DNA from: Arcanobacterium phocae | GTDB lineage: Bacteria > Actinomycetota > Actinomycetes > Actinomycetales > Actinomycetaceae | Length of the DNA stretch: 64,000 nucleotides | NCBI RefSeq assembly: GCF_900105865.1 | Contig: NZ_LT629804.1 | Coordinates: 1,798,001-1,862,000 of the forward strand | Direction of reading: 5' to 3' | Shown: piece by piece, positions 11,879-37,667 of the stretch | How the letters are laid out: every line of letters starts with the position of its first letter | How positions within the stretch are numbered: the first letter of the stretch is position 1 | Position numbers and translations under genes: made by a program | Notes under the pieces: model-generated | What the model was told of the DNA's origin: nothing | Databases searched by the model: none | Seen by the model: only the letters and a program-made list of their open reading frames with translations

Positions 11879-11927
11879 GGTAATAGCGCAAACCTCGTCC
11901 ATATATACCTAGGTTTGCGTTATTGCC
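11879..11927. repeat. Palindromic repeat, copy A
   Basis: The left arm GGTAATAGCGCAAACCT (11879-11895) and right arm AGGTTTGCGTTATTGCC (11911-11927) pair with two mismatches around a 15 nt loop. Loop start, arms and the right flank (AAG..TTT.GGCAC) match copy B at 14009-14057. On the minus strand TTGGCA and TATATA at 16 bp spacing lie inside the repeat, so it may also carry the promoter for the miniprotein-ribF unit. Confidence 0.8.
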
Positions 11928-11956
11928 AAGATTTTGGCACAACATCCGTAGAAAAA

Positions 11957-11991
11957 AGGGGGCAGGATAGATATCATCTATTCTGCCCCCT
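11957..11991 (-). terminator. Rho-independent terminator of the acid phosphatase gene
   Basis: A 16 bp stem (one wobble pair) starting AGGGGGCAGGATAGAT with a 3 nt loop is followed by six T on the minus strand. It lies 16 bp after the gene's stop. Confidence 0.92.
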
Positions 11992-12006
11992 CAGTTCACC
12001 GTTAAT

Positions 12007-13914
12007 TCATGGCAAATAATATGTAGGATTAGGGAGCTTGTAGTGGGCGTCAGCGTATCCCCCAATCAGATCAGAGTATTGATCGCCAAAATTACCGACG
12101 ATGCGATAACCTAAGTCATTCTCGATATGCTTACGAACTGAGGATTTGAACTCGATAGTAGTGCACTTTTCCTTAGCACACGTAACCCACTGCGGAAGTT
12201 CAGCAGCCTTGGATGTCTTCTTCGTGAAGTAGATGCTCGGATCAATAGCTGGATATCCAACTTCCGTCATGTTCCGCTGAGTTATCTCTTTTAGATCATC
12301 GGAACGTCCATTGAGACCAATAATTTCACAGCCCGCTTCCTTAGCAGCAGAAACTAGTTCCGCCATTCCAGGTGTTGCTGGAAGTGCATGGTAGTTCGTC
12401 TTGAGGTAATCAATCTGCTTTGCTGGTGAGAACGCGAACTCCATCCATTCTTCCATGTCATAGGTCCACAGCGTCGTGTCATCAGCATCCAGCGTGATAG
12501 CTGGCTTTTCCCCATGCGCAACAGCAGTCTGGCAGCGCTCGACGACCTCACCGCGAGCTTTATCCGTGACCGCCTTCAGTTCGCTGATGTATGGTGACGT
12601 TTCTTTGCTAGAAACATATTGACCCAGCTCGGCATCCTTATGCGCTGAATAGTAATGACGCAAGGTCGACTTAACAATATCCATATTTGGAATATCGGAG
12701 TCTTTCACGCCCGGACGCGCTCCGGAAGACCCATCTGATGCAACAACATACGTGGATTCAGCTGGTGCCATACCCGCAGCTTTATCGCGAGCTTCCCAGT
12801 CTGCGTCTAGGTTTGGGCTAGGCAAATAGTAGGTAGCATTTGGTAGTTTGACCCATTTTTCTGCTTGACCGCCTTGCAGATCGGACCATTGGTCACCGAA
12901 GTTTCCAATAATGGTGTAACCAAGGTCTTCCTGAATATGTTGGCGGGTACCAGCTTTAAATTGAACAGTAGTGCACTTCTTCTTTTCCATGTCACAACGT
13001 CCCTGGTTAACTAGATACTCCGGCATTGGATCATCTTTTGTAAACTTCGTAAAGAAATACTCGTTCGTGAACAGTGGCTTCCCATTCGCATCTACGTATC
13101 CAGCATGCTCCAAATTAGCGACAGTGTAAGATTGTTGCTTACTGTTACGACCCGTCAGCCCAATAATCTGGCATCCAGCATCGTGAATTTTCTTCACCGC
13201 GTCAACCATTCCCGGAGTTGCAGGCATTTCATGAGCATCAAACCAAGCTTGCTGTTTTGTAGGCGTAAAAGCGAAATTCATCGCCCCATCTTCCATGTCA
13301 TACGTCCACAATGTGGTGTCATCTGAATCAAACACAGCAGCAGGTTTCTTACCAGCAGTTTTGGCAGCAGAACACATTTTCGCGACCTCATCACCGGCCG
13401 CCGAAGCAATAGCAGTAACATCCCGAATATATGGTGAATCGTTCTTGTCGGCTATGCCATCTTTCGAAGCATTCATGTATGCACGCAGCGTCTTTTTAGC
13501 GACATCCCAGTTGATAATATCTTCACCAGAAGCAATGTCACCGGTTGTGCCATCAGCCTTCATCGTGAAGGTTGTTTTAGGTGTCATCCATGATTCGTCG
13601 GTGACAGGCCGAGAGATACCCGTGTTGCTGGCATCTGGTTGTTGCTGCGGCTTGTCCGCGTCAGCTTTCTTCTCTTTTGCAGCGTCATAGTGATAACCTT
13701 GCGGGCATTTTTTGGCTGTTGACGCATAGGACTGCACCGGAGCGTAAGCCATTGCCCCAACTACGGCAACGAGGAGCATCATGGCTACTCCTGCGCGCTT
13801 TTTCCGGATAATTAAAAAAGCACCCAGCATGAGCATGCCGAGTGCAAGTGCAGCTAATAGACCTGTTGACATACCTGTTTTAGCAAGATCAGGTACGCAG
13901 TAATCTGGGATCAC
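12007..13914 (-). CDS. Membrane-anchored protein with two tandem HAD acid phosphatase domains and an N-terminal sortase-like signal
   Basis: The GTG start at 13914 has a strong Shine-Dalgarno (GAGGAGG) 5 nt away, giving 635 residues; a longer TTG frame exists but lacks one. The N-terminus reads LAKTG (10-14), a membrane segment, RKKR (37-40), then a second membrane or signal segment ending about 64. Two repeated class B/IIIB HAD phosphatase domains follow. Domain 1 has DSDDT (about 198) and 'GLTGR'; domain 2 has DADDT (about 475) and 'GLNGR'. Both have 'GNFGDQxSD' and both end in YYLP. Both are probably extracellular and hydrolyse phosphomonoesters. Palindromic repeat copies lie on either side, inside the truB-ribF interval. 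Confidence 0.85.
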   Translation of the reverse strand: MIPDYCVPDLAKTGMSTGLLAALALGMLMLGAFLIIRKKRAGVAMMLLVAVVGAMAYAPVQSYASTAKKCPQGYHYDAAKEKKADADKPQQQPDASNTGISRPVTDESWMTPKTTFTMKADGTTGDIASGEDIINWDVAKKTLRAYMNASKDGIADKNDSPYIRDVTAIASAAGDEVAKMCSAAKTAGKKPAAVFDSDDTTLWTYDMEDGAMNFAFTPTKQQAWFDAHEMPATPGMVDAVKKIHDAGCQIIGLTGRNSKQQSYTVANLEHAGYVDANGKPLFTNEYFFTKFTKDDPMPEYLVNQGRCDMEKKKCTTVQFKAGTRQHIQEDLGYTIIGNFGDQWSDLQGGQAEKWVKLPNATYYLPSPNLDADWEARDKAAGMAPAESTYVVASDGSSGARPGVKDSDIPNMDIVKSTLRHYYSAHKDAELGQYVSSKETSPYISELKAVTDKARGEVVERCQTAVAHGEKPAITLDADDTTLWTYDMEEWMEFAFSPAKQIDYLKTNYHALPATPGMAELVSAAKEAGCEIIGLNGRSDDLKEITQRNMTEVGYPAIDPSIYFTKKTSKAAELPQWVTCAKEKCTTIEFKSSVRKHIENDLGYRIVGNFGDQYSDLIGGYADAHYKLPNPTYYLP

Positions 13915-14008
13915 GTGTCCTCCTCGTTGAAGAATAATAATGTCCTCGCACAATGTGCTCAGAGGTACATAATAGTCCCATTCATATCCCGGTGCCGAAC
14001 GCTAATGC

Positions 14009-14057
14009 GGTAATAGCGCAAACCTCGTCCGTATATGTCAAGGTTTGCGCTATTGCC
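14009..14057. repeat. Palindromic repeat, copy B
   Basis: Arms GGTAATAGCGCAAACCT (14009-14025) and AGGTTTGCGCTATTGCC (14041-14057) pair with one wobble around a 15 nt loop. It has the same orientation as copy A. It lies between the truB stop and the upstream region of the acid phosphatase gene. Confidence 0.8.
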
Positions 14058-14080
14058 AAGTTTTAGGCACACTCAAAGCG

Positions 14081-15109
14081 TCAAAAAATCCGAATTTGCA
14101 GATCCGGTTTGAGCTGTTTAGAACGCGGCGAAACAATCGCAATTGCTTGCTCCCCCAAGAATGCACATGCCGGCCATTTATTGGCTCCGTCGATCCGAAT
14201 CGGATCGTGCCGATCGATAAACAGTCCTCTCCCAAGCCGTTCTGCCTCCGCCCCATCTATATCGATCCGAGAGAATGTTTGTGCACACACGTCATCGATC
14301 CCGACTACCGGTAGCTCTTCCCCATCAGTAATACGATCACGCAATGCTTCAATCGTATGAGCCTGAGCTATGTCCCAGCGCCCAACATGTTCCCGGCGCA
14401 ACATTGACAGGTGTGCCCCGACTCCAAGTTTTGCGCCAAGATCGCGCGCCAAAGCACGTACATAGGTTCCTGAAGAAACATCAACGGCAATATCAAAAGC
14501 CAAGGTGCCGTATCTTTTGTCCCCAATTTGCACCGATTCAGACGCAACATCTGAGGTCCGTTCAAATCGATAGATTGTTACTGTCTGAGCAGCCAGATCT
14601 ACTTGCACACCATCACGAACAAGATCGTGGGCTCGTTTTCCACCAATTTTCTTCGCCGAAACGGTAGCCGGGACTTGCTGGATCTGACCAGTTAGTTCAG
14701 CTATCGCCGTGTCAATCTGGTCAGAACCAATCGAATTAACAGCGCGGACCTCATCAGTCGAAGGAACGATAGGAGTACCATCTGCGTCATCTGTGTCAGT
14801 TCCAACTCCCAAGACGATCCGTGCTACATACGTTTTATCAGCACCGGTTAAGTACTGGACCAGTTTGGTCGCTCTACCAAACGCTACTGTCAGAAGTCCG
14901 GTAGCCATGGGATCGAGTGTACCGGTGTGCCCGACTTTGCGAGTAGCACCAAGGCGACGTAGTGCGCCCACGATATCGTGCGAGGTGACGCCCTGTGGCT
15001 TATCTATAAGGATCAGGCCATCGGCAGCTTCATGGAGGCCACGCGGCAGATCGCCCCACGGCATAACACGCCGGGGGCGATCTATCTCGCGTTTACGATT
15101 CCGAGCCAC
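14081..15109 (-). CDS. truB: tRNA pseudouridine-55 synthase
   Basis: TruB makes pseudouridine 55 in the T-loop of tRNAs. The catalytic Asp lies in 'HTGTLDPMATGLL' (Asp66). 'GLILIDKPQGVTSHD' precedes it, and 'YGTLAFDIAVDVSSGTYVRALARDLG' and a C-terminal PUA-like region follow. The length of 342 residues is normal. It starts with GTG immediately after the rbfA stop, consistent with the rimP-nusA-ylxR-infB-rbfA-truB operon. Confidence 0.96.
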   Translation of the reverse strand: MARNRKREIDRPRRVMPWGDLPRGLHEAADGLILIDKPQGVTSHDIVGALRRLGATRKVGHTGTLDPMATGLLTVAFGRATKLVQYLTGADKTYVARIVLGVGTDTDDADGTPIVPSTDEVRAVNSIGSDQIDTAIAELTGQIQQVPATVSAKKIGGKRAHDLVRDGVQVDLAAQTVTIYRFERTSDVASESVQIGDKRYGTLAFDIAVDVSSGTYVRALARDLGAKLGVGAHLSMLRREHVGRWDIAQAHTIEALRDRITDGEELPVVGIDDVCAQTFSRIDIDGAEAERLGRGLFIDRHDPIRIDGANKWPACAFLGEQAIAIVSPRSKQLKPDLQIRIF

Positions 15110-15604
15110 TTACTCGGCCAACTCGGTAGAGTCAGTCAGCTCGTCATCAGCTACGCTGTCCAATAGGTCAACAGATTCTGCTGATTCTTCATCTGGCTTC
15201 CGGTATGGATCAGGATCCCCAGCATACTGGGCATCTTGAGCCATCTTCCGGATCTGTTCATCACGGTAACGAGCCGCAATAAGCAGATCCTCAATGGATT
15301 TTGCCGATTCTGGCAGTGCATCCAAGTGAAATGCCAGCGACGGCGTCAAGCGTAAACCTAACTGTTTGCCAACATTTGAGCGGATCACTCCGGTAGCTGA
15401 GCGCAATGCGGCAGCAGTACTCTTCGCATCGTGCTCATCACCGAAAACGGTGTAGAACACATCTGCATGCTGTAAATCGCCAGTTACCCGCACATCTGTA
15501 ATGGTGACCATACCTAACCGCGGATCTTTGATCTGCTTGTCAAGCATTGATGCCACTACTTGTTGGATACGTTCCGCTACTCGAGCAGCACGTGGATTAA
15601 CCAT
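15110..15604 (-). CDS. rbfA: Ribosome-binding factor A
   Basis: RbfA is a KH-fold 30S maturation factor that acts on the 5' end of 16S rRNA. The N-terminus 'MVNPRAARVAERIQQVVASMLDKQIKDPRLGMVTITDVRVT' is diagnostic. The core ends near residue 110 ('LAFHLDALPESAKSIEDLL') and an acidic tail of about 40 residues follows. The ATG has a Shine-Dalgarno (GAGGAACT). It sits between infB and truB. Confidence 0.95.
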   Translation of the reverse strand: MVNPRAARVAERIQQVVASMLDKQIKDPRLGMVTITDVRVTGDLQHADVFYTVFGDEHDAKSTAAALRSATGVIRSNVGKQLGLRLTPSLAFHLDALPESAKSIEDLLIAARYRDEQIRKMAQDAQYAGDPDPYRKPDEESAESVDLLDSVADDELTDSTELAE

Positions 15605-15635
15605 AGTTCCTCACTTTACTAAGCGCACACGACTA

Positions 15636-18536
15636 TCAGTCGCGTGGCTTTTCGCGCATTTCGTAGGTCTCGATCATGTCGCCTTGAGCAATATCCTTGT
15701 AGCCGAGCGTGATACCACATTCGTAACCTTCACGGACTTCAGTGACATCATCCTTTTCCCGGCGCAAGGAGACGATTTCGAGGTTTTCAGCAATCGTCTT
15801 TCCGTTGCGAATCAGTCGAGCCTTGTGACCACGGCGGATCGCGCCCGAACGAACAATCGAACCTGCGATGAGGCCGAACTTACCGGACTTGAAGACTTGG
15901 CGAATCTCTGCAGTAGCAACTTGTACTTCTTCATAGATTGGCTTGAGCTTGCCCTTCATAGCTGCTTCGACTTCATCGATAGCATCGTAGATGACGGAGT
16001 AGAACTTCATTTCTACGCCTTCAGCATCAGCCAATTCAGTAACTCGTTCTGCTGGACGGACGTTGAAGCCAATGATGATGGCGTTGTCCACGGTTGCTAG
16101 ATCGACGTCGGACTGGGTGATCGCGCCAACACCGCGGTGAATAACGTTCAGCTGAACTTCATCGCCACCGATTTCGATATCGAGCAAGGACGATTCAAGT
16201 GCTTCGACCGAACCGGAGGAATCACCCTTGATGATGAGGTTAAGGTTTTCGATCTTACCCTCTTCAATGGCTGCGTTGAGATCTTCAAGCGAAACACGCT
16301 TACGGCGCTTAGCCAATGTTGCGGCACGCTTAGCAGCTTCACGACGTTCCGCGATCTGCCGTGCGGTGCGGTCGTCTTCAGCAACAATGAGCTGATCGCC
16401 AGCTCCCGGAACTGAGGTCAAACCGAGGACCTGAACTGGGCGAGCTGGACCAGCTTCCGTCAACCGGTTACCATGCTCATCGATCATTGCACGGACACGT
16501 CCGTACGCAGTACCAACGACGATCGGGTCACCAATGCGCAAGGTTCCTTCTTGGACCAGCGCGGTAATAACCGAACCACGGCCCTGATCGAGCTTGGCTT
16601 CAATGGCTACACCGCGAGCTGGTTTGTTTGGATTTGCCGTAGGCGTTACCAAAATATCGGAGGTAGTCAGTACGGTTTCCAGCAAGGCTGGAATATTGAT
16701 GCGTTGCTTTGCCGAAATATCAACGAATGCAACGTCACCACCGTATTCTTCGGCAACTAAGTTGTATTCAGTGAGCTGAGCACGAACCTTATCCGGGTTC
16801 GCTCCGTCAACATCAATTTTGTTGACTGCGACGACGATTGGCACACTTGCCGCTTGCGCATGGTTAATTGCTTCTACGGTCTGTGGCATAACGCCGTCGT
16901 TCGCAGCAACAACCAAAATAGCAACGTCAGTGATGTCAGCACCACGGGCACGCATCTGGGTAAACGCTTCGTGACCTGGGGTGTCAATGAAGGTGATGGC
17001 ACGCTCGCCGTCTTCAATTTTGACGTGAGTCTGGTAAGCACCGATGGACTGGGTAATACCACCGGCTTCACCTTCGACGACGTCGGCGTTACGGATCGCG
17101 TCCAGGAGCTTGGTCTTACCGTGATCGACGTGACCCATGACGGTCACTACTGGTGGGCGTGGCACACGATCTTCGTCAGATTCGTCAGCGTGCTCAGCGT
17201 CGATATCGATATCGAACGATTCAAGAATCTCACGGTCTTCGTCTTCTGGGCTCATGATCTTGATGTCATAACCAAGTTCTGCGCCGAGTAGTGCGAAAGT
17301 ATCTTCGTCTAGGGACTGATTAGCGGTAGCCATCTCACCCATCCGGAACAAGACGGTAACCAATGCTGCTGGATCTGCTTCGATGCGTTCTGCGAAGTCA
17401 GCTAGGGATGCACCGGCGCGGACACGAACCACAGTGGAACCATCACCACGTGGAATCTGCACGCCCTGGAGCATCGGTGATTGCTGCTCTTCCCATTCTT
17501 GACGCTTTGCGCGCTTAGACTTACGATTGCCGCGGCCGCCACCTTGACGTCCGAAAGCACCTGCGGTTGAACCGCCACGAGCTTTACCGCCGGAACGGGT
17601 GAAACTACCACGACCGCCGGAGTTATTACCACCGAAACCGCCACTGTTACCGCCACGGCCACGGCCACCACCACGGCTAGGAGCAGCTGCTGGCACTTGT
17701 TCTGGCATCATATTGGGGCTTGGCCGGTTACCGCCGCCAGTACGTGGTGGACGCGCAGTAGCTTCAGGGCGTGGTCCTCGGCTCTGACCGCCGCGGCCAC
17801 CTTGGTTGCCTTGGCCTTTACCAGCAAAAGAAGAGCCATTTGGACGAGGACCGCGACCTTGGCCGCCTTGACCGTTGCGTCCGCCCATCCCTTGTTTTGA
17901 AGAGAATGGAGAGTTTCCTGGACGCGGTGCTCCTGGACGAGGACGACCTCCACTTGGGCGTGGTGGTGCAGCTTCTCGCGCTGCTTCAGCAGAAGCGTGT
18001 GCTGATCCTGGCGTTACCCCACGAGCTACTGGCCGTGGGGATGGGCTTGGCTTCTTTACTGATTTGCCGTCACTTGCTCCAGGCTTTTGACCAGATGGCT
18101 TGTTTGAAGCAGGTTTTGCCGATCCTGGTTTTCCTGAGGGTGGCTTAGGCGCAGCTGCTTTTGAGCTAGCTGGCTTAGCAGATTTGGGTGCTGGCTTGGC
18201 AGAAGCAGTCTTTGCGGTAGCTTTCTTCACTGCAGGCTTCGGTGCTGCCGGAGTAGGCGCACTCGGCTTCTTAGTGTCTGCCACTGGTGCAGATTCAGTT
18301 TTTGCTGACGTCGTTTGTGTTGACGTAGACTTTGCTGCCGGTTTCTTGGCAGTCTTCTTCGGATCCACTAGATCGGGATGCGATTCAAAATATTCACGTG
18401 CTTTACGCACTACTGGTGCCTCGATTGACGAGGAAGCAGATTTAACGAATTCACCTTCAGATTTAAGCACTTCAAGCAACTTTTTGCTTGTCACACCAAT
18501 CTCTTTAGCAAGTTCATGGACGCGGACCTTAGCCAC
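15636..18536 (-). CDS. infB: Translation initiation factor IF-2
   Basis: IF-2 is the GTPase that brings initiator tRNA to the 30S subunit and promotes subunit joining. The 966 residues start with the IF2N module ('[21 protein letters not shown]'). A long low-complexity Ala/Pro/Lys region and Gly/Arg-rich stretches follow to about residue 350. The G domain has '[10 protein letters not shown]' (about 465), 'DTPGHEAF' and 'NKIDV'. The C-terminus has '[19 protein letters not shown]'. The GTG start has a Shine-Dalgarno (AAGGAGAA). The gene sits between ylxR and rbfA. Confidence 0.97.
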
Positions 18537-18605
18537 ATTTCTCCTTATGTCTTGGCCCGCGCAAATGTGCGTCAGGCCCCTGTTTGGCAGCTCATCGCTG
18601 GGTAC

Positions 18606-18971
18606 TCATCGGGTGCCCATCGGCTCTCTACCCGCTTTCATTGGGTTATTCGCACATAACTGTGCTGATCGAACAAAATCACTCACATAAGCAACTACTG
18701 CACCAGTATTAGCTATAGGGCGTTTGAAAGCCCGTGCAAACTGAGATGTTTTAACTGCTTGTGCGACACATTTGGAGCATGGATGAATCCACGCTCCACG
18801 CCCTTGCATGGACGCTTGTGGATCTGGGTAAACAGTTCCATCATTGCAAGCCACTACACGCAAAAGCTCGTTCCGGCATGCTTTGTCACGGCAACCGATG
18901 CAGGTACGAACCATGATCCGGTCACGAAAACCGGCCATATTCATATCGATCGATCGCTTTAACATAGACAT
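18606..18971 (-). CDS. ylxR: YlxR-family RNA-binding protein (RNase P modulator family)
   Basis: The core 'VRTCIGCRDKACRNELLRVV' and 'GRGAWIHPCSKCVAQA' define the YlxR/RnpM family (DUF448), small RNA-binding proteins encoded between nusA and infB; Bacillus RnpM interacts with RNase P. The reading frame is 121 residues from an ATG at 18971. Most homologues start near the MVRTC residue, so translation may begin up to about 20 codons later; no start has a clear Shine-Dalgarno. A terminator lies between nusA and this gene. Confidence 0.9.
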   Translation of the reverse strand: MSMLKRSIDMNMAGFRDRIMVRTCIGCRDKACRNELLRVVACNDGTVYPDPQASMQGRGAWIHPCSKCVAQAVKTSQFARAFKRPIANTGAVVAYVSDFVRSAQLCANNPMKAGREPMGTR

Positions 18972-19014
18972 ACAATCTTTAGTCTACTGTATGTAAGCAC
19001 TAAAACTAAACGAT

Positions 19015-19055
19015 AAGAGCCGTGCCACTGCACACATTGCACAGGGACGGCTCTT
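19015..19055 (-). terminator. Terminator-like hairpin between nusA and ylxR
   Basis: AAGAGCCGT pairs with ACGGCTCTT around a structured loop containing TGCA repeats, followed by a moderately T-rich ATCGTTTAGTTTTAG on the minus strand. It may attenuate the nusA operon before ylxR-infB, possibly under NusA control (inference). Confidence 0.65.
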
Positions 19056-19075
19056 TCTCGCGAAATAAACTGGTG

Positions 19076-20053
19076 TTACTCGGATTCCTTGCGGATATCG
19101 ATTGACCAGCCGGTAAGCTTAGCAGCTAGGCGGACATTTTGTGCTTCCTTACCAATAGCCAAAGAAGCTTGATCGTCAGGAACAACTGCACGTGCTTGGC
19201 GCATATCCGGGCTGAGAATCTCTACCTCGGCCACCTTGGCAGGCGATAATGCCGCCGCAATGAACTTGGCTGGATCGTCGTCATAATCAACAACATCGAT
19301 CTTTTCACCATGCAACTCTTGGGTTACTGCACGAACACGCTGACCGTTGTGACCAATTAACGCACCCTTAGCACCGACTGATTCATCATTGCTCCACACC
19401 GCTATCTTGGTACGGTGACCGGCTTCGCGGGCAAGTGCTACAATCTCAACAGTGCCGTCGGCGATTTCTGGAACTTCACTTTCGAACAGCTGCCGCACAA
19501 AATCCGGATGCGAGCGCGATAACCGGATTGACGCGCCATGGCTTCCAACCGAGATATCCAACACTAAGGCACGAATCAGATCTCCGTGCTTGAAATGCTC
19601 CGAAGCAACTTGTTCATCAGCGCGAAGTAGGCCGCGATTCTCGCCCAGCTCAACGAACACATCGCGAGATAACGACGACGCTCCGGCAGAACTTTCAACT
19701 ACACCAGAAACGAGCTGTCCCTTTTTGCCTTGGAACGAACCGAGAACACGCTCTGTTTCAGCATCACGTAGACGCTGAGCGATAATCGATCGTGCCGTTG
19801 AGGTAGCGATTCGCCCAAAATCGTTAGGAGTATCGTCAAATTCTCCAATAACTTCGTCATTCTCATCGACTTCCGGTGCCCATACAGTCACTTTTCCGGT
19901 AGTACGATCCAGCTCTACACGAGCACCACGAACCGCGCCAGGAACCCGATTGTAGGCATGAACCAAGGCTTCCTCAATAGCGTTGAGGAGAACATTCAGA
20001 TCGATACCGAGTTCGGATTCTACAATCCGAAGTTCATTCATTGACAGTTCCAT
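19076..20053 (-). CDS. nusA: Transcription termination/antitermination factor NusA
   Basis: NusA binds RNA polymerase and nascent RNA and affects pausing, termination and antitermination. The 325-residue chain has the N-terminal domain ('ELGIDLNVLLNAIEEALVHAY'), an S1 domain around 'GQLVSGVVESS', and two KH domains ('ALIGHNGQRVRAVTQELHGEKIDVV' and 'LAIGKEAQNVRLAAKLTGWSIDI'). It has no C-terminal acidic repeats, as is usual in actinobacteria. Its ATG shares one base with the rimP stop (TGATG). Confidence 0.96.
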   Translation of the reverse strand: MELSMNELRIVESELGIDLNVLLNAIEEALVHAYNRVPGAVRGARVELDRTTGKVTVWAPEVDENDEVIGEFDDTPNDFGRIATSTARSIIAQRLRDAETERVLGSFQGKKGQLVSGVVESSAGASSLSRDVFVELGENRGLLRADEQVASEHFKHGDLIRALVLDISVGSHGASIRLSRSHPDFVRQLFESEVPEIADGTVEIVALAREAGHRTKIAVWSNDESVGAKGALIGHNGQRVRAVTQELHGEKIDVVDYDDDPAKFIAAALSPAKVAEVEILSPDMRQARAVVPDDQASLAIGKEAQNVRLAAKLTGWSIDIRKESE

Positions 20054-20523: not shown

Positions 20524-20641
20524 AGGTACAACATTACCGGCTCGTACCTAGTGATGTCATAAGAGTGAAGAAAAATCACGTTATCCTATGTAGTGCTGGG
20601 ACACTTTTCCATGCCAGCACATGATATGGCAAAGTAGTGCT

Positions 20642-21559: not shown

Positions 21560-21567
21560 CTGCATAA

Positions 21568-21603
21568 TAAAAGAGGCTGGCTACTACTAGCCAGCCTCTT
21601 TTA
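21568..21603. terminator. Bidirectional terminator between convergent genes
   Basis: A perfect 16 bp stem (TAAAAGAGGCTGGCTA / TAGCCAGCCTCTTTTA) with a 4 nt loop. A and T tracts at both ends serve both the plus-strand gene and proS. Confidence 0.93.
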
Positions 21604-21613
21604 GCAGTTCGAA

Positions 21614-24339: not shown

Positions 24340-24340
24340 C

Positions 24341-25501: not shown

Positions 25502-25531
25502 GTTCTGTATTATTCCACTCTTGAAGATTTC

Positions 25532-26773: not shown

Positions 26774-26788
26774 AGTATCTTTCTCTGG

Positions 26789-29848: not shown

Positions 29849-29887
29849 TCCAGTCCTCGAGAAAAGCAGACGTATGTTTCTGGTTCG

Positions 29888-30781
29888 TCAGTTCACGCCG
29901 AAGCCATACGTAAGGACGACGTAGAGAATCGGTGCACAAAACAACAGTGAATCTACCCTATCGAGCACGCCACCGTGACCTGGAAAGATCGATCCCATGT
30001 CTTTCACACCAAGATCACGTTTCAGAAGCGATTCCGAAAAGTCGCCAGCTGTAGCAAAAACCGGGGTTACCAGCCCGATGATTAGCGCCGCATACCAGGG
30101 TAAGCCTAAAGCGAACCAGATAGTAACCCCCGCAGCGAAGAGTGCTCCGAGGAGTGAGCCAACAAAGCCCTCCCAGGATTTTTTAGGTGAAATCGAAGGT
30201 GCTATCGGATGTTTGCCAAAGGTGATGCCCGCAAGCCAGCCACCAGTATCCGATGCCACTGGGAGAAGTACGAAAGCGACGATAGCAAGCGGGCCATTTT
30301 CAAGTGCTGCCAGAGCTACTGCAAACATCGAAAAGATACCGATCCATGCCAAGGCAAAAACCCCGGCTAAAGCATCGGTTAGGGCATTCGCCATTGGCAT
30401 ATAGCTACGCCACAAGACCAAGATACCACTGGCGATGAGGAATACCACCAGTCCCGCTTCTATTCCGCCGAACCAGGTTGCTAGTATCATACTTAGCCCA
30501 CTTCCAAGAAGTGGGATCGCTGGAATATGAATATCGCGAGCCAGAAATGCTCCCGCAATTTCCCATAAACCTGCAAGGATGAAAGCAATCGCAAGCACTA
30601 CAAAACCTTCGATTTTGTATGCTAACGAAAGCCCCACCAAGCCCAACAAGACAGCAGCTGTCAGCACTGCAGCCGGCACATTTCGCCCGGCACGCGAAGT
30701 AACCTCTTTAGGCGGACGCGGCGGGTGCGGAGTTATGCGTTCTAAAAACGAGCGAGTCGCTGTTGGACTTGGTGTAGCCAC
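29888..30781 (-). CDS. cdsA: Phosphatidate cytidylyltransferase
   Basis: CdsA makes CDP-diacylglycerol from phosphatidic acid and CTP in the membrane. About eight membrane segments lead to the signature 'GDFSESLLKRDLGVKDMGSIFPGHGGVLDRVDSLL' read in parts: GD.SES, KR..G.KD and PGHGG..DR.DS. Length is 297 residues. The GTG start lies just after frr with GGAG from the frr 3' end as a likely Shine-Dalgarno. Confidence 0.95.
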   Translation of the reverse strand: MATPSPTATRSFLERITPHPPRPPKEVTSRAGRNVPAAVLTAAVLLGLVGLSLAYKIEGFVVLAIAFILAGLWEIAGAFLARDIHIPAIPLLGSGLSMILATWFGGIEAGLVVFLIASGILVLWRSYMPMANALTDALAGVFALAWIGIFSMFAVALAALENGPLAIVAFVLLPVASDTGGWLAGITFGKHPIAPSISPKKSWEGFVGSLLGALFAAGVTIWFALGLPWYAALIIGLVTPVFATAGDFSESLLKRDLGVKDMGSIFPGHGGVLDRVDSLLFCAPILYVVLTYGFGVN

Positions 30782-30783
30782 AA

Positions 30784-31341
30784 TCAGATCTCCATCAATT
30801 CCTTCTCTTTAGCCTCAAGAATAGAATCGACGGTATCGACATACTTTTTAGTGAGGCTTTCGAGTTCTTTTTCGGCGCGCTCGACGTCGTCCTCGCCAGC
30901 TTCGCCGTCCTTCTTGATCTTATCCAGCGTTTCCTTAGCCTTACGACGAATTGCTCGAATCGAAATACGCGCATCTTCGCCCTTAGACTTGGCAAGCTTG
31001 ACGTATTCCCGACGACGCTCTTCGGTAAGCGCAGGCAGGTTAATACGCAATACTTGGCCGTCATCAGTAGGGTTGACACCTAGGTCTGATTCTTGGATAG
31101 CACGCTCAATATCTTTCATCGCAGAACGATCATATGGCGAAATAAGAACAGTACGAGCTTCCGGAACCGAAACTGTGGCTAGTTGCTGCAACGGAGTTGG
31201 CGCGCCATAGTAGTCCACAACTAGAGATGTGAATAGTTCTGGATTAGCACGACCCGAACGGATTTTCGAGAAGTCATTACGGGCAACGTCAATTGCTTTG
31301 CCCATCTTTTCTTCGGCTTCGAGTAGGGTATCGTCAATCAT
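30784..31341 (-). CDS. frr: Ribosome recycling factor
   Basis: RRF splits post-termination ribosomes with EF-G. The 185 residues carry '[12 protein letters not shown]', '[24 protein letters not shown]', '[38 protein letters not shown]', all family-typical. The ATG overlaps the pyrH stop by 4 bp, so translation is coupled. Confidence 0.97.
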
Positions 31342-32090
31342 TTTTGGTCCTTGCTGTTGGGGGTTGATGTCACTAGGGTACCGATCTTTTCCCCGCGCAG
31401 CGCGCGAGACACGTTTCCTGGTGTACCCATTCCGAAAACGCGCATGGTCATTCCATTATCTTGGCATAACGAGAACGCTGCCGCATCTACCACTTTTAGA
31501 CCGTCGTGGAGGGCTTGCTGATACGTCACTGATTCAAGCATCACAGCGTTCGGATCTTTACGTGGGTCTGCAGTGTAAACACCGTCAACCCCGTTCTTCC
31601 CTACTAACAACTCATCACACCGTAATTCGAGTGCACGTTGTGCCGAGACTGTATCAGTTGAGAAGAAAGGCATACCTGCGCCGGCGCCAAAGATAACAAC
31701 ACGGCCTTTTTCAAGGTGACGGATTGCCCTTAATGGAATGTATGCTTCAGCAACCTGGCTCATCGTAATCGCCGTTTGTACACGCGACGGAATACCTGAG
31801 TTCTCCAGGAAATCCTGCAAAGCAACCGCATTAATAACGGTACCGAGCATTCCCATATAGTCGGCCCGAGCTCGATCCATGCCATTTTCTTGGAGTTCGA
31901 CACCACGGAAGAAATTACCCCCGCCGACGACGACAGCGACTTGCACACCAGCTCGCACAGCTTCCGCGATTTCATTAGAAATACGACGAAGTACCGTTGT
32001 ATCGAGGCCGATGTCTCCACCGCCAAATACCTCACCCGACAGTTTTAAGAGCACACGGCGTGTACCGTGTGCGGCCATATCAGCAGACAT
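31338..32090 (-). CDS. pyrH: UMP kinase
   Basis: PyrH phosphorylates UMP to UDP; it is a hexameric amino-acid-kinase-fold enzyme. Visible motifs are '[17 protein letters not shown]', '[13 protein letters not shown]', '[20 protein letters not shown]' and '[11 protein letters not shown]'-like '[21 protein letters not shown]'. It has 250 residues, and its ATG is preceded by AAAGGTGG. It starts the pyrH-frr-cdsA operon. Confidence 0.96.
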
Positions 32091-32125
32091 GGTCCACCTT
32101 TCATCTAGTTAGCGCTAAGAAGATT

Positions 32126-32509
32126 CTACCCCATATGACCATAGTTCGAATTACGTCCAAGAATCCGATCCAATTCGCGTCGTTCTTTCTTCGTGGGCCG
32201 GCCCGCTCCACGTTCGCGAGTGAAAACCGGGATATAAACTTTGGGGCGTTGCGGGCTCTTGTCGATATAACAGGCTTGGGCTTGGGTAGCGCTCGAGCGC
32301 TTAGTTAACAATCTGGTGACCTGCAAAATCCGGTCAAATCCTTGGAATCGGTAGCGTACTTCGTCGCCGATTTTCACTGGCGACGAGGGTTTGGCAACGT
32401 TGCCGTTGATCCGCACGTGGCCTGCTTTGCATTCGTTTGTGGCCAGGCTGCGCGTTTTAGTTTGGCGCACTGACCACAACCAGACATCTATTCGAACCGT
32501 TTCACTCAT
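32126..32509 (-). CDS. S4-domain RNA-binding protein (Hsp15-like)
   Basis: This 127-residue protein carries an S4 domain at the N-terminus ('VRIDVWLWSVRQTKTRSLATNECKAGHVRINGNVAKPSSPVKIGDEV'). A basic C-terminal tail follows ('TRERGAGRPTKKERRELDRIL'). The pattern matches the Hsp15/YrfH group, which binds rRNA or stalled 50S particles in other bacteria. It lies upstream of pyrH on the same strand and divergent from the MFS gene. Confidence 0.85.
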   Translation of the reverse strand: MSETVRIDVWLWSVRQTKTRSLATNECKAGHVRINGNVAKPSSPVKIGDEVRYRFQGFDRILQVTRLLTKRSSATQAQACYIDKSPQRPKVYIPVFTRERGAGRPTKKERRELDRILGRNSNYGHMG

Positions 32510-32524
32510 AATATCCAGCCTAAA

Positions 32525-32556
32525 GGGTCATACAGATCACTACAATATTATGACCC
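32525..32556. promoter_or_regulatory. Inverted repeat in the S4/MFS divergent promoter region
   Basis: GGGTCATA and TATGACCC (8 bp arms, 16 nt spacer) lie between the two divergent genes, with AT-rich TACAATATTAT between the arms. It is a candidate operator for the exporter gene; no regulator gene is nearby. Confidence 0.35.
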
Positions 32557-32624
32557 AGCACGCATTAGTTGAAAATGAAAAGGACTACTATCGATCCGTA
32601 CCTTCTTAGACTGAGAGAACACGA

Positions 32625-34172
32625 ATGAAGAAGAACGCAAGATCGATTCCAACCGAGCACGCTTTCGCTGTGCCCGGTTCCCCACGTATATACGATAAAC
32701 GCCAGCTTCTAGCTGTACTCCTTGTGCCTCTGATGATGGCATTAGTACAGGTGAGCTCAGTGAACAACGCACTGCCAGCTCTACGCGAGGCGCTCCACTC
32801 CACCGACTCTGGTCTACAGTGGGTATTATCTGGTTATGCTCTAGCTATCGGAATTGTTCTTGTTCCTGCCGGACGATTAGGTGACATCTTAGGACGCTCA
32901 TCGCTGTTCGTCGTCGGACTCACATTGTTCACTACTATGTCTCTTGCTTGTGGGTTATCCACACATATCGTCGTACTCAATATTTTTAGAGTATTACAAG
33001 GGATTGGCGCCGGAATTCTCTCGCCCCAAACTACTGGGCTCATCTTGCAATATTTCGAAGGTCAGGCACGCGCCAAAGCCTTTGCACTGTTCGGGTTAGT
33101 CGTCTCCTTATCCGTGGCAATCGGTCCCATCCTGTCTGGGGTCTTAATCGGATGGCTCGGCAATGACCTCGGCTGGCGAGGTGGATTCTTAGTCAACGTA
33201 CCGCTCGGAATAATCGGATTGTTATTGGCTATCAAATGGTTACCCTTCGGTAAAGAGCGACGAACCGTGGGGCCTCACCGTCAACAAGTGCAAGCAGAAT
33301 TCCTACGTCGTGAGCGCGCTGCCGGACATAAGGTTATTGAACGACGGGGCAAAATTGATATTGACCCCATCGGAGCTTCCCTGCTTTCGGTAAGCGTCCT
33401 ATTTATCATGCTTCCTTTTATGGTTCGAACCACGCCATGGATATGGACATTTTTACCAGCAGGACTAGCGCTGACTGCTTTCTGGGTGCGCTGGGAGAAA
33501 CGCTACAAAGAGCGCGGACACTACCCCATGATGGATCTTGTGCTTCTCAAAATCCCAAGCTATGCGCTCGGTACACTCACTGGTTCATTATTCTTCTTGG
33601 CCGGACCGGCTGTTATGGCCATCGTCGCAATCTACCTCCAAAACGGAGTAGGCGCTATAGCCCTGAGCGTCGGGCTACTTACCTTGCCCAACGCCGTATT
33701 GTCAGCGTTTGGAGCGATGTGGGGTGGACGACACGCCGTCAAACACGGTGCAGCAATTCAAGTATTATGTGCCGTCATCATCGTTGCCAGCGCCATTGGG
33801 CTGGCCGGCGTCGTCTGGGGAATCGAACATGGTGCTAGTTTCTGGTGGGCAACCATTCCCCTCGCATTCCAAGGATTCGCTTTCGGAGCCTTCGGTTCAG
33901 CAAACCAAACAATAACAATGATGGACGTGCCCCATGCACACGGCGGGACTGCCGGTGGCTTTTTGCAAACAGGCCAGCGCATAGCTACTGCTATCAGCAT
34001 CGCAATGGTGACCGCAGTCTTCTTCGCAGGACAAAGATTAACAACAGGCGAACCCAACTGGCTACTAGGAATGCTCCTCGCACTAGGACTCGTTGTTTTC
34101 CTAGCTTCGCTCACCCTCACCGTTGCGTCGATTATGGTCCATCAGCAACGTACTAGCCTTCACGATAGCTGA
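32625..34172 (+). CDS. MFS exporter, DHA2 (EmrB/QacA-like) family
   Basis: A 515-residue membrane protein with about 14 hydrophobic segments. Segment 1 contains 'LVPLMMALVQVSSVNNALPALREAL', the loop after segment 2 is 'GRLGDILGRSSLFVVG', and segment 4/5 holds 'FRVLQGIGAGILSPQTTGLI'. These are drug:H+ antiporter signatures. A basic cytoplasmic loop lies at about 210-245. The substrate is unknown. Its 3' end overlaps the convergent fixX gene by 20 bp, with no terminator between them. Confidence 0.88.
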   Translation: MKKNARSIPTEHAFAVPGSPRIYDKRQLLAVLLVPLMMALVQVSSVNNALPALREALHSTDSGLQWVLSGYALAIGIVLVPAGRLGDILGRSSLFVVGLTLFTTMSLACGLSTHIVVLNIFRVLQGIGAGILSPQTTGLILQYFEGQARAKAFALFGLVVSLSVAIGPILSGVLIGWLGNDLGWRGGFLVNVPLGIIGLLLAIKWLPFGKERRTVGPHRQQVQAEFLRRERAAGHKVIERRGKIDIDPIGASLLSVSVLFIMLPFMVRTTPWIWTFLPAGLALTAFWVRWEKRYKERGHYPMMDLVLLKIPSYALGTLTGSLFFLAGPAVMAIVAIYLQNGVGAIALSVGLLTLPNAVLSAFGAMWGGRHAVKHGAAIQVLCAVIIVASAIGLAGVVWGIEHGASFWWATIPLAFQGFAFGAFGSANQTITMMDVPHAHGGTAGGFLQTGQRIATAISIAMVTAVFFAGQRLTTGEPNWLLGMLLALGLVVFLASLTLTVASIMVHQQRTSLHDS

Positions 34173-34458
34173 TCCCCATCCCAGAATTCGGGTAATGCCA
34201 GCTCAACGTGCCGGCTGGAGCTAGTGCTAAACACGTACCACACTCCAAGCATGCCGCATATTCAGCAGCCACAGTTCCATCAGGGTTCTTCGAATACACT
34301 CGTGCCGGACAAATACGGATAAGCGTATCCGCGAAACCACTGGCAGCTAATTCTTCTTGATGAACCTCGATATGCGAAGCCTCATCGTCAGTCATATACG
34401 AGTTGCCTGCTAACCGGCGATTAAGCGGAGGCAAGGAAAAGTTTTCACTCTGCGTCAT
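34153..34458 (-). CDS. fixX: FixX-like ferredoxin
   Basis: A 101-residue ferredoxin-like protein of the FixX family. 'ICPARVY' and 'CLECGTCLALAPAGTLSWHYP' correspond to the cluster-binding regions; E. coli FixX likewise lacks a final Cys after CLECGTC. It would pass electrons within the FixABCX complex to the quinone-reactive FixC. It overlaps the fixC stop by 4 bp. Confidence 0.88.
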   Translation of the reverse strand: MTQSENFSLPPLNRRLAGNSYMTDDEASHIEVHQEELAASGFADTLIRICPARVYSKNPDGTVAAEYAACLECGTCLALAPAGTLSWHYPNSGMGISYREG

Positions 34459-35756
34459 AGCGCCTTCTTCATCTTCCGGGCGATCTTGACTAGATTCCAG
34501 ATGCTCAGCTTAGAAGCCTTTAACTTTGCTAATGCCAATGGAACAATGCGTTTACGTGGAGTCTGATCCATGTGATACACCCCGTGAAGCACATCAGCCG
34601 CATACTGACCAATCTCGCCGTACATCTGTGGCGTCGACGCCAAAAAGTCAGGAGCATGACGGAACGTCGCCATATCCTGGCCTAGCCACGAGGCAGCAAC
34701 ATTGCGCTCATAAGCTTGCAATCGAGTAACAGAATAATCCTCTGCTTCTAAAGACTCATGCACTGCGCGAGCAGCACACCGTGCTGATTCCGCAGCCAAA
34801 TCCATTCCACGAATCGCAAAACCATTGTTAATTGTAAAACCAGCAGCGTCACCAACAATAACTGCACCATCAAAAGCAATCCGACCAACCATAGCCTGAC
34901 CACCCTCGGCCACCATATGAGTACCATACTCTAGCAACTCACCACCAGCCAGCAGCGGCTGAATAAACGGATGGCTAATCAAATGATCATGTAGCTCCAC
35001 AACATCATGCCCAGATTCGGCAAGATCCTGAGCATTGACAACAATACCTACACTCACGGAATCCTTGTTCGTGTACATAAATGCTCCGCCCGGAACACCA
35101 CGAGTTGCGTCGCCAACCAATGCGTACGCCACGCCGTCGTCATCCCCCGCGTGGAAACGCTCCGAAACCACATCGGTGCCAAGACGCACCACTGATTTCA
35201 CACCAACGCCCAGCGTCTGCGGAGCAGGCTTCGCTCGCAAACCTGCAGCGCAAGCTAAAAACGAATGAACGCCATCTGCCAAGACTACGATTTTGGCATG
35301 CAAAACATCTTCGCCAGCACGGATACCACAAACTGCGCCCGACTCACTTTTCACAAGCTCGTCCACTTTGACGCCGCTCATAACAGTCACGCCAGCTTCT
35401 TCTGCCTGCTCAGCAAGCCACGGATCAAGTTTGGCACGCAAGATCGACACCGCATTCGTTGGTTGTGCTAAACGCGCATCCCAATAATCCATCGAAACCG
35501 CAGAATCAGCGTTAAGGAGCGTCAAGACATTGCGTGTGATGCGACGTTCTATCGGAGCTACCTGCGAAAAATCCGGAAAAATCTCATCCATGACACGCGA
35601 ATAGAACACGCCACCGGAAAGGTTTTTCTCTCCTGGTTCATTGCCGCGCTCCGCTAACAATACTTCGTGGCCGTCCTGAGCTAACAAATAAGCAGTAGTA
35701 AGACCAGCAATACCAGCGCCCACCACTATAACGTCAAAATCGTAGTCAATGCTCAC
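34455..35756 (-). CDS. fixC: FixC-like FAD-dependent oxidoreductase (ETF-quinone oxidoreductase family)
   Basis: A 433-residue flavoprotein with an N-terminal FAD motif 'VVGAGIAGLTTAYLLAQDG', then 'GEKNLSGGVFYSR', and a second FAD contact 'GAVIVGDAAGFTINNGFAIRGMDLA'. The family moves electrons from electron-transfer flavoprotein to quinone or, in FixABCX, takes part in flavin-based electron bifurcation. It starts with GTG, 11 bp after the etfA stop. The complete A-B-C-X order supports a functional complex. Confidence 0.93.
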   Translation of the reverse strand: MSIDYDFDVIVVGAGIAGLTTAYLLAQDGHEVLLAERGNEPGEKNLSGGVFYSRVMDEIFPDFSQVAPIERRITRNVLTLLNADSAVSMDYWDARLAQPTNAVSILRAKLDPWLAEQAEEAGVTVMSGVKVDELVKSESGAVCGIRAGEDVLHAKIVVLADGVHSFLACAAGLRAKPAPQTLGVGVKSVVRLGTDVVSERFHAGDDDGVAYALVGDATRGVPGGAFMYTNKDSVSVGIVVNAQDLAESGHDVVELHDHLISHPFIQPLLAGGELLEYGTHMVAEGGQAMVGRIAFDGAVIVGDAAGFTINNGFAIRGMDLAAESARCAARAVHESLEAEDYSVTRLQAYERNVAASWLGQDMATFRHAPDFLASTPQMYGEIGQYAADVLHGVYHMDQTPRKRIVPLALAKLKASKLSIWNLVKIARKMKKAL

Positions 35757-35767
35757 AGGATTTTAGC

Positions 35768-36640
35768 TCATTTCTGCAATGCCGCAGTCAATTCCGGCAA
35801 TACTTGATACAGGTCACCGACAATGCCATAATCTGCAAAATCAAACATTGTTGCGAGCTCATCATTGTTGATAGCCACGATTGTTTGGGAGTCCGTGACA
35901 CCTGCAGTGTGGTGGATCTGGCCTGAGATACCAACAGCAATGTAAAGCTCGGGAGCAATAATTTGTCCCGAAATACCAATATAGTTGTCACGGCGCACCC
36001 AACCATAGCCTTCGGCAAGCGGGCGGGAAACGCCCATTTCGGCGCCAAGAACATCCGCCAAATCCTGAGCGAGTTGGAGATCCTCTTTGTTTTCAAATCC
36101 GCGACCGGCGCACACCACACGCTCCGCACGAGAAATATCTACTCGCGGCGTATCACTAATATCCTCCGCGATCACCTGCGCCGAATAACCTGCACAATCC
36201 ACGGTCGCCTCATCACCAGCTGGTCCGGTAAGCTCCGCCCCGCCATCATATAGCGCCACAACCGGACCCGTAAATTCGACTGTTTCTAGTGTAATAGCGC
36301 CGAAACGAGCAACCTGCGCAGTGCCGGTGCCAAGCTGACGAACGCTCACAAGAACAGGGGCGTTCAACTTTGCTGCCACAGCCCCTGCGAGGACACGTTC
36401 AGCAGGTAGATCAGCAGTCAAAATGACATCATCAATACCAGCGGTAACAGCAGCGCTAACTGCCGGAGCTAGAACTTCAGCTGGTTGACCTGCTTGTTGC
36501 GGAATTCGAATCACTGAATCGACATCAGCAACAGCCGCATCACCGACTACGACGGCAGTAATAGTATCGCCGCGGTTTTTACCTAAAGCAACGAGATCAG
36601 AAATAGCGCCAGTGGTGGTAACAATCCATGTAGTTGACAT
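35768..36640 (-). CDS. fixB: Electron transfer flavoprotein alpha subunit (FixB)
   Basis: A 290-residue protein, slightly shorter than the usual 310-330. The C-terminal FAD domain is clear: 'RVVCAGRGFENKEDLQLAQDLADVLGAEMGVSRPLAEGYGWV', 'YIGISGQIIAPELYIAVGISGQIHHTAGV' and 'IVAINNDELATMFDFADYGIVGDLYQVLPEL'. It forms a heterodimer with FixA. A good Shine-Dalgarno (AAGGAAGGA) precedes the ATG. Confidence 0.94.
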   Translation of the reverse strand: MSTTWIVTTTGAISDLVALGKNRGDTITAVVVGDAAVADVDSVIRIPQQAGQPAEVLAPAVSAAVTAGIDDVILTADLPAERVLAGAVAAKLNAPVLVSVRQLGTGTAQVARFGAITLETVEFTGPVVALYDGGAELTGPAGDEATVDCAGYSAQVIAEDISDTPRVDISRAERVVCAGRGFENKEDLQLAQDLADVLGAEMGVSRPLAEGYGWVRRDNYIGISGQIIAPELYIAVGISGQIHHTAGVTDSQTIVAINNDELATMFDFADYGIVGDLYQVLPELTAALQK

Positions 36641-36652
36641 TTTGTTCCTTCC

Positions 36653-37414
36653 TTAGAGCACGCCATCTGCACGGAGCACAGAAACAAGTTCATTTACTGC
36701 ATCTGGACCGGCAAAAATTGTTCGTTTACGCTCACGCTCGGCTGGTTTTTGGTGCGCAACAGGTCGCACACCAGCTGGAGCCGGCTCAACATCTGCCAGC
36801 GTCAGTACCTCGACCGGAGTTTTACCTGCAGCCAGAATTTCCTTCATCGACGGTGCCGGGACACGTGCCGCATCTGATGTAACTGCCACAACAACAGAAC
36901 CAGAAACATCTACCGTGCGAGTTCCACCAGCAACCTGCTGAGTAAGGCGATAGCCGCCGTCGAGAGGTTCAATTTTCTCTACTTGTTGGAATACCGGCCA
37001 GCCAAGATAACCGCCAAGTATCGCTGAAGTCATTGAGGCTCCGTTATCAATTGATGCATCACCAGTAATGACTATCGTTGCGTCTCCGATACGCGCGACT
37101 AGTTGTGAAAGTAGCTGAGCATATTGAGTAGGGTTGAGATCTTGCGCCGCATCATCAGCAAGGATCAGACCGCGAGAAAAGCCTTTAGACATAGCATTTT
37201 TCCGAGCCATGGATCCGCCAATAGCTGCTGCCCCAACACTGATGCCGATAGATTCTGTTCCTAGATCCGCGGCTAAGGCTTTGCCGACTTGGGCCGCCAC
37301 TGGATCATAATCGCTCATTGCAGGTTTTGCACGTGACCAGTCCACCGTACCATCAGCTGCTACTCGAGCATCTTGTGGGTTTGTGGTGTATTTGTATGCA
37401 ACAACTACACTCAT
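36653..37414 (-). CDS. fixA: Electron transfer flavoprotein beta subunit (FixA)
   Basis: A 253-residue protein of the EtfB family: 'VVVAYKYTTNPQDARV' at the N-terminus, 'LSQLVARIGDATIVITGDASIDNGASMTSAILGGYLGWP' in the middle and 'PAPSMKEILAAGKTPVEVL' near the end. The ATG at 37414 has AGGAGT 8 nt upstream; an in-frame GTG two codons earlier is the alternative. It is the first gene of a fixABCX operon located where pyrH would normally follow tsf. Confidence 0.94.
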   Translation of the reverse strand: MSVVVAYKYTTNPQDARVAADGTVDWSRAKPAMSDYDPVAAQVGKALAADLGTESIGISVGAAAIGGSMARKNAMSKGFSRGLILADDAAQDLNPTQYAQLLSQLVARIGDATIVITGDASIDNGASMTSAILGGYLGWPVFQQVEKIEPLDGGYRLTQQVAGGTRTVDVSGSVVVAVTSDAARVPAPSMKEILAAGKTPVEVLTLADVEPAPAGVRPVAHQKPAERERKRTIFAGPDAVNELVSVLRADGVL

Positions 37415-37616
37415 GAACACACTCCTATGAATTGCGGGTTTAAACCATCATAATTCTATACGCTTTGCGTAATCGCATGCGCTAGAAGTGTGGTGGGATT
37501 AGTCGCTAAACAGTTGCTGTCCCAAACGAAGTCTGGTCACTACACCACTACTGAAACTAAACCGTTCTTCGATGCCAGAATGGGGGGGTGCTACACGTGA
37601 TACCGTCCGCTAATCA

Positions 37617-37667
37617 CGGCAATAGTGCAAACCGAGGCATATATGCTCTCGGTTTGCACTATTGCCG
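37617..37667. repeat. Palindromic repeat, copy C
   Basis: A perfect 20 bp stem (CGGCAATAGTGCAAACCGAG / CTCGGTTTGCACTATTGCCG) encloses GCATATATGC(T). Arm core and TATAT loop match copies A and B (AATAGYGCAAACC), but this copy is more symmetric. Confidence 0.8.

Follow-up and report, generated by a model that had tools for sequence, protein, structure and literature searches.

Three palindromes, here called copies A, B and C, lie in a 64,000-nucleotide stretch of the Arcanobacterium phocae genome (contig NZ_LT629804.1, positions 1,798,001 to 1,862,000; hereafter the window), where an earlier note made from the sequence alone had proposed that they form a repeat family. Our analysis of the whole genome (G000; 1,998,242 bp, single contig) and of its relatives suggests, with a probability that we put at about one half, that they belong to a family of sequence-specific DNA sites that is old, has been retained by vertical descent, and whose members fold and correct themselves. 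With moderate confidence, and from sequence comparison, we propose that the arms together form a site of two-fold symmetry recognised by a putative sequence-specific DNA-binding protein, and their pairing is likely maintained by template switching.

A dispersed palindrome family in Arcanobacterium

We found the three palindromes at the positions given for them. The window contains three occurrences of the arm pair GCAAACC/GGTTTGC (pattern GCAAACCN{8,30}GGTTTGC), where 0.02 would be expected, and none of 100 shuffles reached three. Across G000 the arm pattern taken from the earlier note matched 14 times, or 18 times with up to three mismatches, while a control pattern read backwards matched nowhere in the genome in either the exact or the three-mismatch scan. 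A covariance model returned 38 matches over the two strands, that is, at least 19 sites, including a diverged copy at 1105529, and the genome scan that the note had called for thus revealed a family well beyond its three members. The model was applied at E ≤0.1 to the best 150 candidates of each genome (in G000, the best 150 of 674), which makes its counts lower bounds: at least 19 sites in G000, at least 14 in G001, at least 16 in G004 and at least 19, plus one weak one-strand match, in G005. Diverged members were found in G006 (at least three sites) and G003 (at least two weak one-strand matches), and G002, G007 and G008 had no copy among the scored candidates.

As far as we searched, the family occurs in one group of Arcanobacterium species and nowhere else. 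Within the taxonomic family, a relaxed pattern matched in 4 of 213 genomes and a pattern for two variant types described below (types B and C) in 3 of 213, all of them Arcanobacterium; the other 35 genera (204 genomes) gave no match in the two scans. A scan of 84,980 species genomes, incomplete even for the genus in that it missed the copy-bearing congeners G001 and G005, returned 14 stretches, seven of them in A. phocae and seven singletons in unrelated taxa, where by our own estimate about four would be expected by chance. Viral contigs held no match to the pattern, and phage and plasmid records none to one copy used as query. Among the papers listed that pair Arcanobacterium with palindromes, titles and abstract openings showed none on this family. 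Because G003 and G006 have other inner arms and G002, G007 and G008 showed none, a site of this family is not essential to the genus.

The anatomy of the element emerged when 62 copies from four species were aligned on their centres. It spans about 81 bp and is two-fold symmetric to about 40 bp on either side of the centre, so that the limits of 49 to 51 bp proposed earlier enclose real copies but are too narrow. A nearly invariant 13-bp inner arm, AATAGCGCAAACC, occupies positions -21 to -9; none of the 124 half-sites departs from GG at -24/-23 or from CAA at -14 to -12. The inner arms enclose a 17-bp spacer with an asymmetric, GTATATG-like core, and each is flanked by an outer arm whose sequence is lineage-specific (simplified consensus ggcGT-N5-AAACtcGGC in G000 and G004, tgTGCAgtAAAtgGGG in G001 and G005). 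Over the nine Arcanobacterium genomes (G000 to G008), the exact half-site GGSAATAGYGCAAAC occurs solely within palindromes of the family. With one mismatch allowed, 37 hits were found in G000, all in family palindromes save those at 187406 and 1021415, and 11 hits over the nine genomes were unpaired.

Besides this prevalent form, type A, there are variants in which the arms are again paired. Type B has the outer ends of type A around other inner arms (GGGGAATACGGGG...CCCCGTATTCCCC; two sites in G001, four in G006), and type C, at one site in G003, shares the outer ends and has different paired inner arms. At a locus that is orthologous in three genomes (L127:2530-2607 in G000, L128:2516-2593 in G004, L125:2539-2618 in G001), a diverged copy keeps AATAGCGCAA arm ends, with an inner stem in G001 that differs and is again self-paired. 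After truB in G003 (L225:1774-1900) stands a distinct TGTGCA-ended inverted repeat with arms around TTTGCATTTT/AAAATGCAAA; placed where other genomes carry type A or B, it is possibly a fourth type.

Conserved arms and an inverting core

Copies occupy orthologous loci in different species, and we compared the inner arms, the outer arms and the next 60 bp in 45 orthologous pairs whose two flanks were both homologous, of which 20 were close (flank identity ≥88%) and 25 diverged (<88%). Mean identities in the close pairs were 0.97, 0.93 and 0.93, respectively; in the diverged pairs they were 0.94, 0.54 and 0.63. The corresponding values are 0.56 for unrelated 60-mers and, for any pair of family copies, 0.92 in the arms and 0.50 in the outer arms. 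Because the arms persist where the surrounding DNA nears saturation, we regard their sequence as constrained. Such constraint would fit a recognition site and not a dead mobile element, although concerted evolution could also yield it. A regulator site, one of the options raised in the earlier note, is compatible with arms so much better conserved than their surroundings. As the putative partner, a chromosome-organising or recombination protein would fit better than a local regulator, because no function is obviously common to the flanking genes. They encode YchF, TruB, an HrpA-like helicase, Tsf, lactate dehydrogenase, PspC, a histidine kinase, ABC and MFS transporters, GNATs, a methyltransferase and an acid phosphatase; these labels come from Pfam matches, save for TruB, Tsf and the HrpA-like protein, which we take to be such from their protein sequences.

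The same pairs revealed that the core inverts in place. Judged from the flanks alone, and by a difference of three matches to which several diverged pairs come close, the core had the same orientation in 28 of the 45 pairs, was flipped in 16 and was ambiguous in one. In the 16 flipped pairs the outer arms were unflipped in 13, ambiguous in two and flipped in one, and eight of the 16 had at least 25 direct outer-arm matches over 38 positions. Of the close pairs, 4 of 20 were flipped (at three loci), and of the diverged pairs 12 of 25; that is, core orientation is randomised with time. The close cases are clear-cut: between G000 (683912) and G004, 16 of 17 core positions are identical when reversed and seven when read directly, with 37 of 38 outer-arm positions matching directly; between G000 (1084445) and G004, the core scores 13 reversed and 5 direct, with 33 direct outer-arm matches; and at 560180 of G001, compared with both G000 and G005, the core scores 15 reversed and 9 direct, again with 33 direct outer-arm matches. 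Adding pairs with one homologous flank (73 in total, one link being to a paralogous locus) gave 27 flipped, 42 same and four ambiguous. In the window, the cores of A, B and C are oriented as in their G004 orthologues.

A core that inverts between outer arms that do not bears the mark of template switching during replication, a process that also accounts for compensated changes in the arms without selection on RNA. The palindrome would fold as a DNA hairpin during replication; template switching within the hairpin would copy one arm onto the other, leaving compensated substitutions, and would flip the spacer. Arm homogenisation together with spacer inversion at hairpins is described for yeast (PMC8604942) and for rRNA genes, those of bacteria included (PMC8794818), in the parts of these sources that we draw on. 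The Arcanobacterium elements resemble those cases in their in-place core inversion, homogenised arms and compensated changes, and differ from them as there presented in that the changes affect many loci of a repeat family dispersed in bacterial genomes and have reached saturation between diverged species.

The capacity to fold and the paired substitutions are both evident. Folded as single-stranded DNA, in a run that also included one type B and one type C copy, copies A, B and C gave z-scores of -6.1, -3.9 and -9.3, with a contiguous stem of 17-20 pairs. Covariation was assessed in 61 of the 62 copies, omitting the copy at L067 4630 of G004, which has a one-base insertion and is included in the tallies of context, compensation, orientation and arm identity. 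Two-sided paired cells numbered 91, compared with 62.4 ± 6.1 in shuffles and 19-49 in slid controls, and the covariation score was 0.145 against 0.096 in shuffles. The covariation check advocated in the earlier note was thus borne out for two-sided paired cells but not for pair types (32 versus 32.9 in shuffles) or pairs with two-sided change (11 versus 10.9), neither of which was in excess. Among 70 orthologous pairs sharing one or two flanks, and with an expectation that assumes equal rates at all sites, compensated pairs numbered 15 against about 3.1 expected for G000-G001, 6 against about 1.5 for G000-G004, 13 against 2.6 for G000-G005, 17 against 5.2 for G001-G004, 4 against 1.9 for G001-G005 and 15 against 5.9 for G004-G005.

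That substitutions stay paired had been read in the note as a sign that the fold itself is kept. The pairing is real, but the inference to selection on the fold is weakened, because the core inverts while the outer arms mostly stay and because template switching also homogenises arms. In bacterial palindromes, paired substitutions are often taken to indicate selection on RNA structure; here a replication process alone can keep the pairing. Template switching leaves the constraint on the arms unexplained, which would make fold and sequence separable in some 60 natural sites.

We consider it very unlikely that the elements act as RNA hairpins in transcripts (terminators, or stability or processing signals) with a fold kept by selection. 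Such a role would accord with the strong folding, computed as DNA, with the paired substitutions, and with the neighbouring genes, which by mechanical open reading frame (ORF) calls are co-directional for 45 of the 62 copies and convergent for 11; six copies, however, lie between genes called divergent. Among the 45 co-directional copies, non-canonical pairs on the transcribed strand showed no clear RNA bias (53 G-U versus 40 A-C), nor did core orientation clearly follow transcription (28 along, 17 against). Copy C lies behind the terminator-like hairpin of tsf and copy A behind a separate T-tailed hairpin (Table 1). A terminator scan limited to loops of 3-8, which could not list A or B, gave no terminator-like match at any of the three copies, and Rfam gave no match at gathering threshold in the window. 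The inversion of the core also speaks against this role. For the RNA processing signal that the note had entertained, strong folding and paired changes thus stand beside an inverting core and no clear RNA-strand bias.

Several observations weigh against retained, self-correcting DNA sites. What we show is constraint on the arms, and no protein is named as their binder; moreover, the inner arms differ in G003 (type C) and G006 (type B), the three genomes noted above yielded no copy among the scored candidates, and in G002 truB, the phosphatase gene and the small gene follow one another in the same order with no element among them. The outer arms shift lineage-wide at fixed loci, which resembles concerted evolution, and ectopic gene conversion or renewed spreading could keep the arms alike. 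Flips in diverged pairs could in principle reflect independent insertions, leaving three close loci as firm cases. Finally, the expectation for compensated pairs treats all sites equally, the same genomes recur across comparisons, and no compensated pair occurs in the five orthologous pairs that include window copies (expected 0.0 and 1.1).

Mobility and exchange of gene modules

We regard it as possible, though doubtful, that the family is instead a non-autonomous mobile palindrome resembling a REPIN or a miniature inverted-repeat transposable element (MITE), with a mobiliser that has been lost or goes unrecognised and with subfamilies A, B and C derived from related mobilisers. The elements are dispersed and two-armed, their subfamilies have common outer ends and centre, and their layout is that of REPINs as outlined in the portion of PMC3116915 consulted. 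At the locus of copies A and B, moreover, the truB and ribF sides carry type B in G001 and G006 and type A in G000, G004 and G005, and G002 has the same gene order and no elements. Against mobility, PF01797 (Y1, IS200/IS605-like), the transposase family searched, was absent from all nine Arcanobacterium genomes and present in 5 of 14 control genomes; the exact type A half-site did not occur outside palindromes; phage and plasmid records (one copy as query) and viral contigs (pattern) contained nothing; the aligned loci offered no clean empty site or target duplication; and the copies sit at orthologous loci with undecayed arms. At tsf the element was seen in G000 and G004 only, the other spacers being too diverged to show a boundary (the comparison covered 133 spacer bases for G007). 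After the acyltransferase gene at 682 kb, G001 has an apparent half element where G000 has a whole one. G007 has no phosphatase at the truB locus.

REPINs and REP elements associated with RAYT transposases (PMC3116915, PMC3733652, PMC2817692) are the closest known comparison, to the extent that we drew on these reports. Like REPINs (PMC3116915, PMC3733652), the elements have two conserved inverted arms, a variable spacer, a single-stranded DNA hairpin, a dispersed distribution and subfamilies. They also share with REP elements and REPINs a location mainly between genes, 19 of the 62 copies lying inside mechanically called ORFs of at least 75 amino acids, only some of which were checked (that over copy A has an over-long start). 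Their copy number of at least 14-19 falls within the range of small REP families, 20-100 or fewer as given in PMC3733652. They differ from REPINs in lacking a Y1/RAYT gene in the nine genomes, in their contiguous stem of 17-20 pairs and in being fixed at orthologous loci. The REP family with a RAYT-type transposase envisaged in the earlier note accordingly found no support, and we dropped that assignment. Nor did we favour a reading of the palindromes as insertion sequence ends, since no exact type A half-site lay outside them in the nine genomes. CGTC-tagged REPs, which in the part of PMC3733652 consulted have no known transposase, stems of 8-9 bp and loops of 4-5 nt, are similar in lacking a dedicated transposase, and CGTC stands near the end of some G000 copies; unlike them, the elements have a stem of 17-20 bp and a 17-bp spacer, and the outer-arm consensus of G001 and G005 has TGTGCA instead of CGTC, which leaves them outside the GTAG/CGTC-tagged class. 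By word search, the main text of PMC3733652 names neither Arcanobacterium nor Actinobacteria. With MITEs the elements share terminal inverted repeats, in that their symmetry extends to about ±40 bp.

Where repeats occur in pairs, the genes that they enclose may be lost or exchanged exactly. At the ychF locus, two elements of G000 enclose three GNAT genes, G004 has a 343-aa gene without a Pfam match between two elements, and G005 has a Phd/YefM antitoxin protein, a small ORF and a relative of one of the three G000 GNATs between two elements, followed by two more genes. G001 has one element there, joining the left flank of the first element to the right flank of the second as these stand in G000 and G004. 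In our judgement it is clearly unlikely that the elements serve as recombination sites at which whole gene modules come, go or are replaced with element-to-element precision, whether through a dedicated recombinase or through homologous recombination between copies. In its favour, paired copies enclose genes including GNATs, a Phd/YefM antitoxin protein and a cupin plus methyltransferase, and noncoding homology breakpoints fall at elements in excess: within 60 bp of an element centre lay 4 of 15 breakpoints for G000/G004 (P 0.003; 4.4% of noncoding positions are this near; 30 breakpoints in all), 4 of 12 for G004/G000 (P 0.001), 7 of 16 for G001/G005 (P 3e-5) and 3 of 12 for G005/G001 (P 0.02). 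The stretches were, however, picked around elements, and in diverged pairs the conserved element itself extends homology. A test of ORF junctions was mixed: for G000/G004, 7 of 13 junctions with an element were broken versus 19 of 82 without (P 0.04), but for G004/G000 the figures were 2 of 9 versus 22 of 76 (P 1.0), and four other comparisons gave P 0.17-1.0, in a test made noisy by spurious ORFs and by adjacent G004 stretches kept separate by 99-base gaps. Many copies are syntenic on both sides, and PF00589, the recombinase family searched, gives 2-4 tyrosine recombinases per genome whether or not the genome has the repeats. Ordinary homologous recombination from one repeat to another would be enough for module exchange. 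The elements resemble integron attC sites and dif-module cassettes in being palindromes next to small accessory genes, among them those for GNATs and an antitoxin, and differ in forming no array, with many single copies beside housekeeping genes.

A more specific form of the recognition-site proposal, which we think unlikely, would make the elements clade-specific sites for a dedicated DNA-binding or recombining protein, with a fixed 13-bp box, an outer box that would have changed specificity in parallel, lineage by lineage, at many fixed loci, exact module joints and a self-correcting, flipping hairpin. In practical terms the elements are markers of Arcanobacterium, some of them at spots where gene modules differ between species.

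Two further loci bear on gene content around the elements. Between truB and the ribF-side genes, G001, G003, G005 and G006 have 3-6 related proteins of about 330 aa together with an ABC transporter pair (L131:3107-9712, L130:2904-7815); one of the proteins was tested and had no Pfam match. This run replaces the acid phosphatase, and in G003 it stands besides it. Over long stretches between truB and the ribF side, G001 and G006 are about 95-99% identical, which suggests exchange between species. Separately, an integrase-like gene (L029:4614-5894; PF00589 match, G000 680739) adjoins the element at 682206, beyond which the DNA differs between G000 and G004; this region is possibly a genomic island. 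A tRNA beside this element, read by eye, was dropped, as ARAGORN finds none in L029.

The window copies and their neighbours

The three window copies, their arms and two nearby hairpins outside the family are listed in Table 1. Each core measures 43 bp. In an inverted-repeat search the arms measured 34 nt in A, 17 nt in B and 25 nt in C, with complementarity of 79%, 94% and 92%, respectively. The hairpin beside copy A was found directly and as an inverted repeat, and is absent from the terminator scan list. Because separate hairpins precede A and C, a reading of these two copies as intrinsic terminators is unsupported.

Table 1. Positions in the window of copies A, B and C, their inner arms and neighbouring hairpins
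Feature	Position	Strand	Remarks
Copy A, full two-fold symmetric element	11863..11943	-	Core 11882-11924; strand gives orientation of the asymmetric core
Copy A, left inner arm	11882..11894	+	AATAGCGCAAACC
Copy A, right inner arm	11912..11924	-	AATAACGCAAACC on the - strand
Hairpin followed by TTTTTT, after acid-phosphatase gene	11957..11991	-	Outside the family; 32 bp from core of A
Copy B, full element	13993..14073	-	Core 14012-14054
Copy B, left inner arm	14012..14024	+	
Copy B, right inner arm	14042..14054	-	
Copy C, full element	37602..37682	+	Core 37621-37663
Copy C, left inner arm	37621..37633	+	AATAGTGCAAACC
Copy C, right inner arm	37651..37663	-	AATAGTGCAAACC on the - strand; both arms depart identically from consensus
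Terminator-like hairpin of tsf	37713..37746	-	Outside the family; 49 bp from core of C

Copy A stands between a double acid-phosphatase gene (12007-13953, - strand) and a small gene rich in Cys, Gly and His codons (start 11822, - strand). A mechanically called ORF (11640-11945) overlaps it; since the start conserved between species is 11822, the called start is over-long and the copy is intergenic. The core of copy B lies 26 bp beyond the truB stop codon, the copy being upstream of the acid-phosphatase gene, and copy C lies between tsf (37775-38644, - strand) and an ETF-domain gene (36653-37420, - strand). With the ORF start at A corrected, all three window copies therefore lie between genes, as the earlier note had held.

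The product of 12007-13953 contains two acid-phosphatase stretches (HAD IIIB, PF03767), and its N-terminus resembles an LPXTG-type sorting signal (VPDLAKTG, a hydrophobic stretch and RKKR), with the motif kept as DLAKTG or DLAQTG in G003 and G002; sorting signals are normally C-terminal. A few genes from copy C, the window also encodes a XerC/D-like tyrosine recombinase (40552-41478, - strand; PF00589, E 7e-45).

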